From contig NZ_VTTH01000001.1 of NCBI RefSeq assembly GCF_008831265.1, forward strand, positions 124,001 through 188,000: a DNA stretch of 64,000 nucleotides, given 5' to 3'. Position 1 is the stretch's first letter; every line of letters begins with the position of its first letter. Of the stretch, positions 36,107 to 41,743 are shown in pieces. The DNA comes from Lacisediminimonas profundi (GTDB lineage: Bacteria; Pseudomonadota; Gammaproteobacteria; Burkholderiales; Burkholderiaceae_D). Made by a program: the position numbers and the translations under genes. The notes under the pieces were generated by a model that saw only the letters and a program-made list of their open reading frames with translations, did not search any database and was not told the DNA's origin.

Positions 36107-36988
36107 ATGTCGATCCTGATTAACAAAGACACAAAAGTCATCACCCAAGGCATCACTGGCAAGACCGGACAGTTCCACACCCGCATGTCGCGCGAATACG
36201 CGAACGGCCGGAACTGCTACGTGGCAGGTGTCCATCCCAAGAAAGCTGGCGAAGATTTCGAAGGCATTCCCATCTTTGCATCGGTGAAGGATGCCAAGGC
36301 CGAGACCGGCGCCACGGTTTCCGTGATTTACGTGCCGCCGGCCGGCGCTGCGGCTGCGATCCTGGAAGCGGTCGAAGCGGAGCTGGATCTGGTGGTTTGC
36401 ATCACCGAAGGTATTCCCGTACGCGACATGCTGGAAGTGAAGGACCGCATGGCCAAGACCAACAGCAAGACGCTGTTGCTGGGACCGAACTGCCCGGGCC
36501 TGATCACGCCAGACGAACTGAAGATCGGCATCATGCCGGGACACATCCATCGCAAGGGCCGCATCGGCGTGGTATCCCGTTCCGGCACGTTGACCTATGA
36601 AGCCGTTGCGCAAGTGACCGCGCTCGGCCTGGGCCAATCGTCTGCAGTCGGCATCGGCGGCGACCCGATCAACGGTCTCAAGCACATCGACGTGATGCGC
36701 ATGTTCAACGATGATCCCGACACCGACGCCGTGATCATGATCGGCGAGATCGGCGGACCGGACGAAGCCAACGCATCCTACTGGATCCGCGACAACATGA
36801 AGAAGCCGGTGGTCGGCTTCATCGCCGGCGTGACCGCGCCGGCCGGCAAGCGCATGGGCCATGCCGGTGCGCTGATTTCCGGCGGCGCCGATACTGCGGA
36901 CGCCAAGCTGGAAATCATGGAAGCATGCGGCATCACGGTGACGCGCAATCCTTCCGAGATGGCCCGCCTGCTGAAGGCGATGCTGTAA
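36107..36988 (+). CDS. sucD: Succinyl-CoA ligase [ADP-forming], alpha subunit
   Basis: The CoA-binding and phospho-histidine subunit. The 293 residues include the N-terminal CoA fold ([15 protein letters not shown]), [12 protein letters not shown], the GPNCPGLI loop, and the active-site His 252 in [11 protein letters not shown]. The gene pair sucCD is complete. A UUCG hairpin at 37104-37127 closes the unit. Confidence 0.97.
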
Positions 36989-37103
36989 GAATGGCCTGGA
37001 TGGGCTGCCCGGAACGCTGGCTGCACATGGCGGATCCCGGATGGCCCCGTCAGGATGGATCGTCAGCCGTCCGGCGCTCATCGGCACCGGTTCGGGATTG
37101 ACC

Positions 37104-37134
37104 TGCGGGGAGCTTCGGCTCCCCGCATTCCTTT
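37104..37134 (+). terminator. Intrinsic terminator after sucCD
   Basis: A perfect 10-bp GC-rich stem (TGCGGGGAGC, loop TTCG, GCTCCCCGCA) followed by TTCCTTT. The UUCG loop makes it very stable. It ends 20 bases before the PP2C start codon. Confidence 0.8.
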
Positions 37135-37154
37135 GGATCCGTTTAGACTGTCGC

Positions 37155-37994
37155 ATGCGCCGACCCTACCTCCTGCCAGTGCAATTCGCCAGTGCCACCG
37201 ATGTCGGCCGGGTGCGCACGCATAACGAAGACGCGCTCACGGTCAGTGCGGAGCTTGGACTGGCGATCGTCGCCGATGGCATGGGCGGCTACAACGCCGG
37301 TGAGGTCGCGAGCGGCATTGCCACTTCCGTGTTGGCGGAGGCGCTGGAGCAGCGATTCCGTGGTGAACCCTCGTTGCTGGCCTTGCCGGCGCAGAGGATG
37401 CAGCAGTTGCTCGCAGACGAAATCCAGCACGCCAACGCCTCCATCTATGCCGCAGCCTGCCAGGAAACCGGCTACAAGGGCATGGGCACGACCCTGGTGC
37501 TGGCCTTGCTGCGGCAACGCGAACTGGTGATTGCCCACATCGGGGATTCGCGCGCGTACTGCTTTCGCGAACAAAAGTTGCGGGCACTGTCCCGCGATCA
37601 CTCACTGTTGCAGCAGCAGCTCGACGCCGGGCTGATCACCGCCGAGCAAGCTCGCGCAGCCAAGCAGAAAAACCTGCTGACCAGGGGCATGGGCGTCGAC
37701 AGCACGGTCGAGGTCGAGGTGCACACGCACCCGCTCGCGCCGGGCGACATCATCTTGCTGTGCACGGACGGATTGACGGACGAATTGTCCGACCGCTCGA
37801 TCGAGGATCTGCTGATCCACGGCGCAGGCGACCTGGAGCAGACCTGTCGCGACCTGGTTGCCAGTGCCAATGCCCGCGGCGGCGCCGACAATATCTCGGT
37901 GGTACTGGTGCGTCGGCCAGACCCGCCCGGGGGCGATGGGCTGGGGCGCCGCCTGCTGCGCGGCCTGAGCGAATTCCTGTTCCTGTCACGCTGA
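37155..37994 (+). CDS. PP2C-family serine/threonine phosphatase (Stp1-like)
   Basis: A soluble metal-dependent phosphatase of 279 residues from the ATG at 37155. All PP2C metal motifs are present: DVGRVRTHNEDAL, VADGMGGYNAGE, GTTLVLALLRQRELVIAHIGDSRAY, CTDGLTDELSD and GGADNISVVLV. The frame runs upstream to 37041 across the sucCD terminator, without similarity. No Hanks-type kinase gene is adjacent. The next gene is pilA, transcribed from its own promoter, so a link to pilus control is only a guess. Confidence 0.9.
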   Translation: MRRPYLLPVQFASATDVGRVRTHNEDALTVSAELGLAIVADGMGGYNAGEVASGIATSVLAEALEQRFRGEPSLLALPAQRMQQLLADEIQHANASIYAAACQETGYKGMGTTLVLALLRQRELVIAHIGDSRAYCFREQKLRALSRDHSLLQQQLDAGLITAEQARAAKQKNLLTRGMGVDSTVEVEVHTHPLAPGDIILLCTDGLTDELSDRSIEDLLIHGAGDLEQTCRDLVASANARGGADNISVVLVRRPDPPGGDGLGRRLLRGLSEFLFLSR

Positions 37995-38094: not shown

Positions 38095-38110
38095 TGGCAC
38101 GTCAATTGCT
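38095..38110 (+). promoter_or_regulatory. Sigma-54 promoter of pilA
   Basis: TGGCAC-N5-TTGCT matches the RpoN -24/-12 consensus (TGGCAC-N5-TTGCW) at every position. It lies 53 bases before the pilA start codon. PilR-dependent sigma-54 control of pilA is established in several proteobacteria. Confidence 0.9.
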
Positions 38111-38162
38111 CCAAAGGAACACAGACAGAAGCTTCTGTCCTCATTCAACTAGGGAGATTCAG

Positions 38163-38621
38163 ATGAAATCCGCAAAAATGATCAAGCGCGTGCAACGTGG
38201 CTTTACGCTGATTGAATTGATGATCGTGGTCGCGATCATCGGTATCCTGGCAGCGGTCGCCATTCCGGCCTACCAGGACTACGTGACCAAGGCCAAAGTC
38301 GCCAAGGTTGCTTCCGCTGTAAGCGCAGTGCAAACCGCGATCGCCCAGTTCTCGCAAGAGAATGGCGGCACGCTGGCTAGCCTGGCTAGCGCTGACAACT
38401 GGACCTCGCTGGGCCTGTCGGGCGCACCGACGACCACCACCGAAGTCACCGGCATCAGCGTCAGCGCTGCTGGCGTCATCACGGCCAGCATCGCTCCTGC
38501 GATCACCGGTACCGCATGTAACATCGTCTACAGCCCGACGGTTGGCGGTACGGCAATCAAGTGGGCCGTCAGCACCACCTGCGCCGCGCCTGTTCCGGCA
38601 ATCGTCGCGAAGTGGAACTGA
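38163..38621 (+). CDS. pilA: Type IV major pilin PilA
   Basis: The pilus subunit, 152 residues, with a class III leader. Cleavage by PilD falls between Gly 13 and Phe 14 ([23 protein letters not shown]), and Glu at mature position 5 is present. The hydrophobic N-terminal helix is followed by a Ser/Thr/Ala-rich globular part ([15 protein letters not shown]) and a C-terminal disulfide loop (Cys 119 to Cys 140). The tail after the loop is [13 protein letters not shown] short in-frame 9-bp duplication encodes LASLAS near residue 72. It has a sigma-54 promoter and its own terminator. Confidence 0.95.
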
Positions 38622-38640
38622 TAGTAGCCTGAGCCTCGCA

Positions 38641-38666
38641 AAAGCCCCTCTCCGGAGGGGCTTTTT
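38641..38666 (+). terminator. Intrinsic terminator between pilA and the GT-C/TPR gene
   Basis: Arms AGCCCCTC and GAGGGGCT around TCCG, followed by four more T residues. It ends only 8 bases before the next start codon, and its 3' arm contains the only GGAGG near that start. Confidence 0.85.
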
Positions 38667-38674
38667 CATCTCTG

Positions 38675-40351
38675 ATGCACACTCGCCTGATTACATGGCT
38701 CAAGCAACGCCAGCGCGGCTATGTCCTGCTGCTGATCGGCGCAGTGCTCGCGCTGTACCTGCCTTTTCTCTCCAATCCGTTTTTTTTTGACGACCTCACC
38801 TTTTTCAGTTCCGCGCCGGTTCCGTCCGCCGGACTGGACTTCCTGCTGAGACCACGCGGAATTCCCTACGACAGCATGCTGTGGACCATGCAATGGTTCG
38901 GCAGCACGCTACCTCATGCTTATCGGCTAGTCGACGCTGTGCTTCACGCGGCCACCGCGGTCGCCCTGTTCGTGCTGCTGCGCAGCCTGCTGCAGCACAG
39001 TTGCGGGCAATCTGCGCAATCAAGCGCGCTCGACTTCGCCGCTGCTGCAGCGGCGCTTGTTTTCGCCCTGCATCCAGTCGCTAGCTATGTCGCCGGATAC
39101 ATCGTGCAACGCAGTATCGCGATGGCGACCTTGTTTTCGCTGCTGTGCCTGTGGGCCTGGCTGAATGCCGCGGCCACAGGGAAGAATCGGTGGATTGTGC
39201 TGGCTGTACTGACTTATTTCCTTGCCTGCTTTTCGAAGGAGCATGCCGTCGGACTGCCCTTGCTGATCGCCGCCATCACCGTGCTGATGCGCCGGCAGTT
39301 GCGGCTTTCGCCGCCGGCATTGTTGCTGGCTGCGCTGGCAATGGGCGGAGTAGCGCTACTGATCGTTCTGCGCATGCGCGGCGTCGTCGGTACCGCCTAC
39401 GAGCCGATGGCGGCGCATGTCTTCGCACAGAGCGGCCTGCTGGAAGGCAAGCCCGCGCACGCCCTGAGCATCGCCACCCAGGCCGGCCTGTACTTCAAAT
39501 ACCTGTTGCTTTGGCTGCTCCCCGTGCCGGGATGGATGTCGGTCGACATGCGGCCGGAATTCCTGACCAGCCTGGTGCAATGGAAAGCTTGGGGCGGGCC
39601 GCTTGCCTTCCTGCTCTACGGTGCACTGGCAGCAAGGCTGCTGTTTGCCCGCGGGCTGCTTGCGCTTGCGGGATTCGGCCTGCTTTATCCATGGCTGATG
39701 TTCCTGGTCGAGTTTTCCAGCGTGCGGGTGCAGGAGCCTCTCGTGCTCTATCGCAGCTATCTGTGGATGCCCGGCCTGATGCTGGTGTTGGCTGTGCTGC
39801 TTCTCTGGCTCCAGCAACTTCCGGCAGTGCGCGAGCGAATCCTGGCATTGCCCTTTGCCCGGCTGGGTTTGCTGCTTCTGGTCGTGGCCTTGCTGACGCC
39901 GGCCACACTCGACCGGCTCACTGTGGCATCCGACACCTGGCGCTTGTGGGATGACGCCGCGGGCCTGCTGGAAAACGATGCGGTGGCCGGCGCCGACCGC
40001 ATCCTCTACAACCGCGGCAATGCCGCACTGGCCGCCGGCCGTCCGGCGCAAGCGGTGGCCGATCTGCAGCGGGTTGCCCGTATCAGTCCGCAGCTGTACC
40101 AGGTGCATCAGGCGCTCGGCCTGGCGCATTTCGCCAATGCCAACCCAGTCGGGGCAGAGGGTGCTTTCCGGCACGCGCTGTTGCTAAAACCGGGCAATCC
40201 CGTGCTGTTGTATGCGCACGCGGTTACGCTCAAGCGCCTCGGCCGGGCAGCAGAGGCGCGCGAGGAGATGACGGCATCATGCGCCGCGCAACACATGCCG
40301 GCCTGCCTGGTCGTGGCGCGCCTGAAGGTGGAAGCTGGCGGACCTGATTGA
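38675..40351 (+). CDS. Multi-spanning TPR protein, TMTC/GT-C glycosyltransferase-like
   Basis: A 558-residue membrane protein with about ten hydrophobic segments and a C-terminal TPR domain (about 430-555). The first periplasmic loop has NPFFFDD (Asp 39-40), where GT-C enzymes keep acidic catalytic residues. HPVASYVAGYIVQRS (133-147) and CFSKEHAVGLPLL (185-197) resemble bacterial TPR relatives of the TMTC O-mannosyltransferases. Such proteins are mostly uncharacterised. It lies 53 bases after pilA, across a terminator, so pilin or surface-protein glycosylation is an attractive but unproven role. An O-antigen-ligase type enzyme or a purely structural TPR protein are alternatives. Confidence 0.65.
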   Translation: MHTRLITWLKQRQRGYVLLLIGAVLALYLPFLSNPFFFDDLTFFSSAPVPSAGLDFLLRPRGIPYDSMLWTMQWFGSTLPHAYRLVDAVLHAATAVALFVLLRSLLQHSCGQSAQSSALDFAAAAAALVFALHPVASYVAGYIVQRSIAMATLFSLLCLWAWLNAAATGKNRWIVLAVLTYFLACFSKEHAVGLPLLIAAITVLMRRQLRLSPPALLLAALAMGGVALLIVLRMRGVVGTAYEPMAAHVFAQSGLLEGKPAHALSIATQAGLYFKYLLLWLLPVPGWMSVDMRPEFLTSLVQWKAWGGPLAFLLYGALAARLLFARGLLALAGFGLLYPWLMFLVEFSSVRVQEPLVLYRSYLWMPGLMLVLAVLLLWLQQLPAVRERILALPFARLGLLLLVVALLTPATLDRLTVASDTWRLWDDAAGLLENDAVAGADRILYNRGNAALAAGRPAQAVADLQRVARISPQLYQVHQALGLAHFANANPVGAEGAFRHALLLKPGNPVLLYAHAVTLKRLGRAAEAREEMTASCAAQHMPACLVVARLKVEAGGPD

Positions 40352-40397
40352 TCCCGTCTGCGTCAGGCCTGGATGCTGTTGATGGTGGTATAAAGAC

Positions 40398-40444
40398 CAA
40401 ACAACAAGATCAAACAACAAGATCAAACAACAAGATCAAACAAC
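40398..40444. repeat. 13-bp tandem repeat, 3.6 copies
   Basis: Three perfect copies of CAAACAACAAGAT plus eight bases of a fourth, in the leader of the DUF1080 lipoprotein gene and 18 bases from its start codon. The tract is A/C-only except GAT, unlike its GC-rich surroundings. Confidence 0.95.
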
Positions 40445-40462
40445 AACAAACAGGAGGACGAC

Positions 40463-41062
40463 ATGGCACGTATTTTCTCTTTTGCGGCAATTTCAGTAAC
40501 CCTTGCAGCCGCACTGGCCGGGTGCGCTGGCATGGGCAGCACGGCCCCCTGGGCCACCCTGGTCGACGGCCCCCGCGGGCTGGAAAACTGGAACCGTATC
40601 GGCGACGCCAACTGGCGTGGCGCTGACGACGCAATCGTGGCCGACCGCAAGGCCGACAAGACGCCGAGCTACCTGGTATCGAAGAACAGTTACAAGGACT
40701 TCGAGATCCACGCCGAATTCTGGGCCAGCCAGGATGCCAACAGCGGCATCTTCATGCGTTGCGCCGATCCGAAGCAGATCACCGACAAGAGCTGCTATGA
40801 AGTGAACATCTTCGACCAGCGCCCCGGGCAGGAGTATTCAACCGGCGCCATCGTCAATTTCGCCCCGGTTTCGCCGGTGCCCAAGGCCGGCGGCAAATGG
40901 AATACCTTTGACATTGTTGTTCGTGGCAATCGATTGACGGTCAAGCTCAATGGCGTGCAGACGGTCGACCTGCAGGACAGCAAGCTGGCGCAGGGACCAT
41001 TTGCCTTGCAGTACGGAGCCGGCGTGATCAAGTTCCGCAAGGTGCAGATCAGGCCGCTGTAA
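40463..41062 (+). CDS. DUF1080 (3-keto-disaccharide hydrolase-like) lipoprotein
   Basis: A 199-residue secreted lipoprotein: signal peptide MARIFSFAAISVTLAAALAG and lipobox LAGC with Cys 21. The mature part is a DUF1080 jelly-roll domain of the concanavalin-like type (YKDFEIHAEFW, NSGIFMRC, YEVNIFDQRP, WNTFDIVVRGNRLTVKLNG). Some DUF1080 members hydrolyse 3-keto-glucosides; activity here is unknown. A good GGAGG precedes the ATG. Just upstream is a 13-bp tandem repeat. Confidence 0.85.
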   Translation: MARIFSFAAISVTLAAALAGCAGMGSTAPWATLVDGPRGLENWNRIGDANWRGADDAIVADRKADKTPSYLVSKNSYKDFEIHAEFWASQDANSGIFMRCADPKQITDKSCYEVNIFDQRPGQEYSTGAIVNFAPVSPVPKAGGKWNTFDIVVRGNRLTVKLNGVQTVDLQDSKLAQGPFALQYGAGVIKFRKVQIRPL

Positions 41063-41245: not shown

Positions 41246-41743
41246 CTACGCAGTCCAGTGCCCCGACTTCCCGCCCATCTTCTCCAGTAGCCTGACGTCG
41301 CCCATCACCATTCCCCGGTCCACCGCCTTGCACATGTCATAGATGGTCAGCAGCCCCACCTGCACTGCCGTCAGCGCTTCCATTTCCACACCAGTCTTGC
41401 CGGCGGTTTCGGCGCGCACCGTGCAGCGGATGCTGGATGCAGCCTGGTCCACCTCGAAATCGGCGCTGACGTGGGTCAGCGCGAGAGGATGGCAAAGCGG
41501 TATCAGGTCGCTGGTCCGTTTGGAGGCCATGATCGCCGCAATGCGCGCAATGCCCAGTACATCCCCTTTCTTTGCCGTGCCGGACTGGATGATGGCCAGT
41601 GTTTCCGGCTGCATCGTGATGGTTCCGGTGGCGATGGCAACGCGGTGGGTGTCGGCCTTGCTGCCTACATCCACCATGTGCGCCTGGCCGGCGTCGTCGA
41701 AATGCGTTAGTCCTTGCGTGGCGGTGCTGTCTTTCCTGGTCAC
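41246..41743 (-). CDS. moaC: Cyclic pyranopterin monophosphate synthase MoaC
   Basis: It converts the 3',8-cyclo-GTP derivative made by MoaA into cyclic pyranopterin monophosphate in molybdenum cofactor synthesis. The 165 residues show [38 protein letters not shown] with the conserved Cys-His, [19 protein letters not shown] and [14 protein letters not shown]. No other moa genes are adjacent. It diverges from the BepA-like gene; the shared spacer carries an 11-bp tandem repeat. Confidence 0.96.

Follow-up and report, generated by a model that had tools for sequence, protein, structure and literature searches.

A TMTC-like GT-C membrane protein encoded behind pilA in Lacisediminimonas profundi, a proposed pilin glycosyltransferase

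What does a TPR-bearing membrane protein do when its gene directly follows a type IV pilin gene? In the window, by which we mean the whole 64-kb stretch of L. profundi DNA that was analyzed, the gene order is sucC, sucD, a PP2C phosphatase, pilA, an ORF of 558 aa, a 3-keto-disaccharide hydrolase-like lipoprotein, moaC, and bepA (suc, moaC, and bepA were named from their sequences). An original prediction, made from the DNA letters, had put forward pilA and the 558-aa ORF as a candidate pilin glycosylation pair, and the pair is now supported in silico by a GT-C fold prediction and by recurrent linkage to pilA. We propose that the 558-aa protein is probably a TMTC-like O-glycosyltransferase that depends on a lipid-linked sugar and acts on the neighboring pilin, a reading drawn from its fold, its residues, the slot occupied by its gene, and the linkage to pilA together. 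The features of the locus are collected in Table 1.

Table 1. Positions of the features discussed (in the window unless a locus is named).
Feature	Position	Strand	Basis
sucD and PP2C-type phosphatase, left-hand border of the slot	36107..37994	+	ORFs, families; same order in relatives
Sigma-54 (-24/-12) promoter-like site TGGCAC-N5-TTGC, before pilA	38095..38109	+	Exact match
pilA, type IV pilin, class III signal	38163..38621	+	ORF, 152 aa; family matches and model
Terminator-like hairpin between pilA and the enzyme gene, proposed attenuator	38640..38665	+	Folding energy
TMTC-like GT-C membrane protein, proposed pilin glycosyltransferase, 558 aa	38675..40351	+	Fold, residues, families
Codons of Asp39-Asp40, acidic pair, first loop	38789..38794	+	Sequence; position computed from ORF start 38675
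Codons of Lys188-Glu189-His190, loop TM5-TM6	39236..39244	+	Sequence; model helices
moaC, right-hand border of the variable slot after pilA	41246..41743	-	ORF; same border in relatives
GT41 TPR genes	L140 3172-5655; L231 10816-13026; L235 9001-11211; L236 3788-6181		Pfam PF13844

Several claims of the original prediction could be read directly from the letters, and each was borne out: the gap of exactly 53 bases between pilA and the ORF; FFFDD (residues 36-40), HPVASY (133-138), QRS (145-147), and FSKEH (186-190); the C-terminal TPRs; and a pilin without a C-terminal Ser, which ends in ...IVAKWN and matches the N_methyl (E 7.5e-11) and Pilin (E 4.9e-5) families. The 558-aa protein is laid out as a GT-C part (residues 1-430) and a C-terminal TPR domain (about 436-555), with TPR matches at about 441-535. 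In an alignment of 52 members, the window protein included, P134, Y138, Y142, K188, and R360 were kept in all 52; D39, D40, R146, E189, and D291 were each kept in 51, and H190 in 47. H133 was not in the columns kept at 85% or more of this alignment.

An AlphaFold2 model of the protein, built from nine sequences, had a mean pLDDT of 74.9 and a pTM of 0.76, with low confidence at residues 43-79, 235-242, and 285-288, which are parts of the proposed active site. Its best structural match was Pmt1-Pmt2 (6p25; Z 19.3 over 310 residues, model residues 6-420), and further matches included Pmt4 (9e61; Z 18.8) and yeast OST (8agb; Z 17.3). PMT and OST chains filled ranks 1-15 (Z 16.1-19.3, within model residues 1-447), ahead of the rows matching the TPR part alone; the OST catalytic chains matched the membrane part at Z of about 16-17, and TPR proteins matched residues 436-555. 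Foldseek alone gave weak E-values, the best being 3.6e-4 for an OST chain. The modeled structure, with PMT and OST as its best matches, supports the GT-C fold that the original prediction had expected.

One reading of the model helices gives 11 membrane spans, in which residues 235-302 form a long loop from TM7 to TM8. TMTC proteins are described with 11 helices and with DUF1736 as the TM7-TM8 loop (PMC7801869). By our reading of the model helices, D39-D40 would lie in EL1, P134, Y138, Y142, and R146 in EL2, K188-E189-H190 in EL3, D291 in EL4, and R351/Q353/E354/Y359/R360 in EL5, and these are the loops given for TMTC motifs M1, M3, M4, M5, and M7 (PMC7801869). Acidic residues in the first extracytoplasmic loop are one mark of a GT-C enzyme, and D39 and D40 are predicted to sit there. 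If the protein has 11 spans and its N-terminus is cytoplasmic, its TPRs would be periplasmic.

Family searches gave a narrower picture. Pfam and NCBIfam returned nothing for the 558-aa protein beyond TPRs or TPR-containing families; there was no match to TMTC_DUF1736 (PF08409), PMT (PF02366), or PMT_2 (PF13231) at E up to 1, and none to Wzy_C or TfpM. Nine members scanned with Pfam all had C-terminal TPRs, as TMTC proteins do, and the families shown for them (25 of 27) included no GT-C model and none of PF08409, PF02366, or PF13231. A search of the genome with PF08409 was empty, as were its controls. Relatives of solved structure were also sought by sequence search and set aside; the matches listed (60 of 329 in one listing) cover the TPR part alone. 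The profile searches suggested at the outset, for GT-C, DUF1736/TMTC, and PglL/Wzy_C domains, yielded TPRs alone in Pfam, and the description "TMTC-like" holds for the fold, the topology, and several motifs but not for the Pfam TMTC domain.

The animal O-mannosyltransferases TMTC1-4 likewise combine an 11-helix GT-C part with C-terminal TPRs and carry DD, the EL2 Arg, KE, and the EL4 Asp in matching loops (PMC7801869). When motifs M1-M7 were compared by eye, DD, the EL2 Arg, KE, the EL4 Asp, and the E..Y block were present in the 558-aa protein, whereas SHKSYRP, DW, and PxxP were not seen as such. Unlike TMTC1-4, the 558-aa protein is bacterial and pilin-linked, has no TMTC_DUF1736 match, lacks the Trp of DW after Asp291, and has KEH in place of KE(T/Q)xxT. 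Full-length TMTC homologues have already been noted in prokaryotes (PMC7801869).

The gene is carried by 3 of 3 Lacisediminimonas genomes searched, the window's included, and is split over two contigs in one of them; the closest named relative found was a Lacisediminimonas MAG locus (L022) with 67% identity. Counting the window's own genome each time, matches at E 1e-10 were found in 16 of 195 genomes of the family, 51 of 399 of the order, and 10 of 369 of the class; these counts may be low because 3 to 7 candidates were scored per genome. An alignment search across the phylum found the gene in at least 4 of 349 genomes, namely that of the window and three others from its order, a lower bound with at most 4 candidates scored per genome. 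No match was found in phage records. Loci were built for the best matches, and of the remaining matches four were examined (L084-L087). A tree of 64 proteins, made by a quick method and with several open forks, placed the window protein in a 46-member clade; L002, L003, L016, L017, L020, L029, and L049 had been left out beforehand as duplicate or incomplete.

A pilin gene lay on the same strand 42-838 bases upstream in 33 of the 46 clade members, and at 235 bases or less in 30. The gap of 838 bases belongs to L035, and in L041 (wider stretch L231) pilin and enzyme are separated by a 101-aa ORF. In L037 a transposase-like gene stands between the enzyme and a pilin-like ORF about 2 kb upstream, and in L014 the pilin is downstream on the opposite strand. 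No pilin gene was found nearby in 11 of the 46; in three of these (L008, L028, L051) the upstream sequence is shorter than 0.8 kb. On the 64-row tree, pilA adjacency needed 5 changes when those three were not counted and L037 and L014 were taken as linked.

Wider context was surveyed in the window together with 25 loci, of which 20 were new to the analysis, with genes named by a reading of protein starts. Most members from the window's family have the order sucCD-PP2C(-FHA)-pilA-X-moaC-bepA, X being the gene behind pilA; the exceptions are L022, in which other genes follow, and the genome of L014 with its inverted pilin. Gallionella-type members have another gene order, with an ATPase-like and a GAF-type gene upstream, and L237 has the order pilR-like, pilA, X, and pilB-, pilC-, and pilD-like genes. 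Linkage is thus found in at least three different gene neighborhoods, and the pilA linkage that the original prediction had singled out for checking is seen again in different families and gene orders. In L224 there are two tandem pilin-enzyme pairs, whose pilins have different nearest neighbors among the linked pilins. Pilin and enzyme similarity were correlated (Mantel r 0.52, 0 of 5000 permutations as high, n = 32), a relationship confounded by shared ancestry.

Some members stand away from pilA. By gene names read from sequence, L077 and L078, within the clade, are beside secA-like genes, and L075 and L076, outside it, are between rsmA-like and helicase-like genes; the clade members L070 and L072 are near a gene that starts like a pilus/type II secretion assembly ATPase. 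The distant relatives L079, L085, and L086 adjoin a glycosyltransferase-like gene (with starts such as ILHVGKFFPP) in a two-gene arrangement.

The pair also shares a regulatory layout with its relatives. The original prediction had given pilA a sigma-54 promoter, and the site before it is the sole exact match to TGGCAC-N5-TTGC in the window; with one mismatch allowed, there were 7 matches in the window compared to 8.5 expected, which is no excess, and a sigma-70 scan of the window found nothing. The hairpin between the two genes was absent from the original prediction. It has an 11-bp stem, a T tail, and a folding energy of -21.2 kcal/mol (z -3.0), and it is this energy that distinguishes it, not the loose terminator scan, which found 3 terminators in the window compared to 2.7 expected and was not above chance. 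Among the 33 pilA-enzyme pairs (a set that includes L017 and not L084), a sigma-54-type site lay within 200 bases before pilA in 29 (mean 0.47 and largest 3 in shuffles), and a hairpin with a T tail lay between the genes in 26 (mean 0.55, largest 3), each compared to 60 rounds of shuffling. An accessory gene after the pilin gene with a terminator-like hairpin between them is the layout of a pilin-accessory cassette, and the pair has it.

PilP was found in the genome, making type IVa pilus machinery likely. The same genome encodes a second PilA-like pilin (L137, G000:C4:297035-297433; 48% identity), beside which no modifier gene was recognised. In one relative, six pilA-like matches lie in a row (G067:C10 182218-186461).

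We then asked what follows pilA in relatives whose best pilA match lacks the enzyme. The survey took 79 stretches around best pilA matches, chosen from 116 genomes, and was not a random sample since matches already known to have the enzyme were left out; 30 stretches were not syntenic, 4 were too short, and 45 were informative. A modifier or accessory class occupied the slot in 22 of these 45: 7 Wzy_C, 7 PGLL, 1 PGLL+Wzy_C, 2 TFPZ, 3 TFPZ with PGLL, 1 TFPZ with a TPR-GT41 gene (L140), and 1 distant TPR GT-C (L133), with L129 assigned to PGLL by hand. Of the other 23, 6 had moaC within 600 bases of pilA and 17 had something else or nothing recognised, so a modifier at the slot is common, not general. 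Ten slot representatives were scanned with Pfam and NCBIfam. Wzy_C was found in 8, two of these also having PglL_A and Wzy_C_2; TfpM matches were far below NCBI's cut-off in 6; TfpX/TfpZ was above cut-off in L120; and L133 had TPRs alone. The remaining slot classes were assigned by profiles built from these ten. Alternative accessory genes behind pilA are a pattern described for P. aeruginosa (PMC11841053).

In three non-syntenic stretches (L147, L148, L151) a distant GT-C follows a pilin, and these three and L133 keep the GT-C label under a profile of the membrane part. That profile rejected the label for the L140 gene of Table 1 and for extra matches in L230, L231, L235, and L236, which arose because the full-length profile also catches TPR proteins; the rejected matches were also scanned with Pfam, except that of L230 and one of three in L231. 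TPR proteins of the GT41 (O-GlcNAc-transferase) type lie within a few kb of a pilin gene in four genomes, those of L231, L235, and L236 being near a pilin/GT-C pair, and are possibly a soluble counterpart in pilus modification. One relative has an Acyl_transf_3 membrane acyltransferase between pilA and moaC (L166 2150-3223, minus strand), a hint of pilin or glycan O-acylation. In the window itself, the gene between the enzyme and moaC (40463-41062) has a 3-keto-disaccharide hydrolase domain (E 6.1e-37) and a lipoprotein-like start, and is preceded by a short repeat of the AAACAACAAGATC kind at about 40396-40450.

The occupants of the slot bear on three rival explanations. PglL is present in the same slot of relatives, PglL enzymes have broad substrates and act on many proteins (PMC12645811), and the 558-aa protein might similarly be a general O-glycosyltransferase for which pilin is the main substrate among others. 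We consider this unlikely, because TfpO, TfpM, and PglS are often closely linked to the pilin gene, which has not been seen widely for PglL (PMC12645811), and because enzyme and pilin similarity go together here, subject to the shared ancestry noted above. PglL also differs in its PglL_A/Wzy_C/Wzy_C_2 domains. A less probable explanation still is a non-catalytic accessory or assembly factor like TfpX/Y/Z, a GT-C shell without activity; TfpX/Z-type genes occupy the same slot in relatives and TfpY promotes pilus assembly in Pseudomonas (PMC11841053), but the catalytic-type residues D39, D40, K188, E189, D291, and R360 are nearly invariant in the 52 sequences, making a decayed enzyme unlikely. 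It is equally improbable that the protein glycosylates some other acceptor (lipid A, an envelope glycan, or other secreted proteins) and that positional inertia keeps its gene beside pilA, for although L070, L072, L077, L078, and, outside the clade, L075 and L076 are away from pilA, the linkage spans several chromosomal contexts and tandem pairs, the promoter and hairpin pattern recurs, and three of the genomes with a TMTC-like gene away from a pilin (G002, G016, G025) have a PglL-type gene after their best pilA match, with nothing recognised there in a fourth (G019).

A glycosyltransferase for the neighboring pilin is the reading that we prefer, and the pilins suggest where it may act. The last residue is Ser or Thr in all 7 Wzy_C-linked pilins (with a Cys near it in L134) compared to 5 of 32 GT-C-linked ones, and in each of these 5 a Cys immediately precedes it; 4 of 9 PGLL-linked pilins share such an ending, so the tail is not unique to Wzy_C partners, and the contrast was noticed in the data rather than predicted beforehand. 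TfpO and TfpM use C-terminal sites on the pilin (PMC12645811). From the tail contrast we infer that an internal site on PilA is likelier than a C-terminal one. In the PilA model (mean pLDDT 71.8), Thr90-93 lie in a loop between helix 1 and strand 1, modeled at low confidence (pLDDT 53-71 for this block). Two candidate signatures were discarded: the Ser/Thr excess of GT-C-linked pilins (S+T 0.273, n = 32) over pilins without a nearby modifier (0.248, n = 69) was too small, and stretches of the '..TxTxEV' kind are shared by pilins next to Wzy_C enzymes. The linked pilins showed no acceptor motif in common.

No donor-making gene was recognised beside the pair. Elsewhere in the genome are a row of PMT_2-type GT-C, GT2, and GtrA genes (L211), an arn-like operon with ArnT-like and ArnC-like genes, both below NCBI's cut-offs (L212), and three Wzy_C genes; the genes of L211 or L212 could be the source of a polyprenyl-phosphate sugar, and neither adjoins the pair. 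The ArnT/PMT family has the GT-C fold and takes polyprenyl-phosphate sugars as donors. Such donors are described in PMC7801869. The 558-aa protein differs in having no PF02366 or PF13231 match and in standing apart from the ArnT-like gene of its own genome.

Pilin modification cassettes are already known, and the one with TfpW is among the nearest in description. To our knowledge, TfpW is without TPRs, the TPR domain being a feature of the 558-aa protein; TfpW adds D-arabinofuranose. In the Pseudomonas aeruginosa group IV cassette, TfpW is a pilin glycosyltransferase with a terminator after pilA (PMC11841053), and its placement in the GT-C family comes from a title in the reference list of that article. 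The "TfpW-like" label of the original prediction thus stands for position and fold class, the likeness being one of description. TfpO and TfpM are also partnered with a pilin, and in relatives the slot can hold TfpM-like Wzy_C genes; in contrast to the 558-aa protein, they are not GT-C enzymes but Wzy_C O-oligosaccharyltransferases that use the C-terminal Ser or Ser/Thr of the pilin (PMC12645811). In the titles and abstract beginnings of the open-licence literature searched, no paper came to light that describes a GT-C enzyme with TPRs as linked to pilA or as part of such a cassette.

Taken as a mechanism, pilA would be transcribed from the sigma-54 promoter, and the hairpin behind it may let through a fraction of transcripts and thereby keep the enzyme low relative to the pilin. 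The enzyme, a putative inner-membrane GT-C protein, would move a sugar from an undecaprenyl-phosphate-linked donor, presumably a monosaccharide, to a Ser or Thr of the neighboring PilA. Its active site would face the periplasm and comprise Asp39/Asp40, Arg84, His91, Arg146, Lys188-Glu189-His190, Asp291, and the 351-364 block, and the TPR domain, which 11 membrane helices would place in the periplasm, may hold the pilin. The pair would then act as a pilin-accessory cassette like pilA-tfpO, -tfpW, and -tfpM. We also lean toward the broader view of a TMTC-like GT-C class that takes pilin by a periplasmic TPR arm and alternates with TfpM-, PglL-, and TfpX-type genes at the pilA slot.

If true, animal TMTC O-glycosylation would have a counterpart in bacteria with one known substrate, and the pair would serve as a two-gene bacterial model for TMTC-like enzymes in which that single substrate is abundant; it would also be a possible tool for attaching sugars to proteins. 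Pilin glycosylation in Pseudomonas protects against pilus-specific phages (PMC11841053), and with one more enzyme class at the pilA slot, this one TPR-bearing, pilin modification would reach many environmental Betaproteobacteria.
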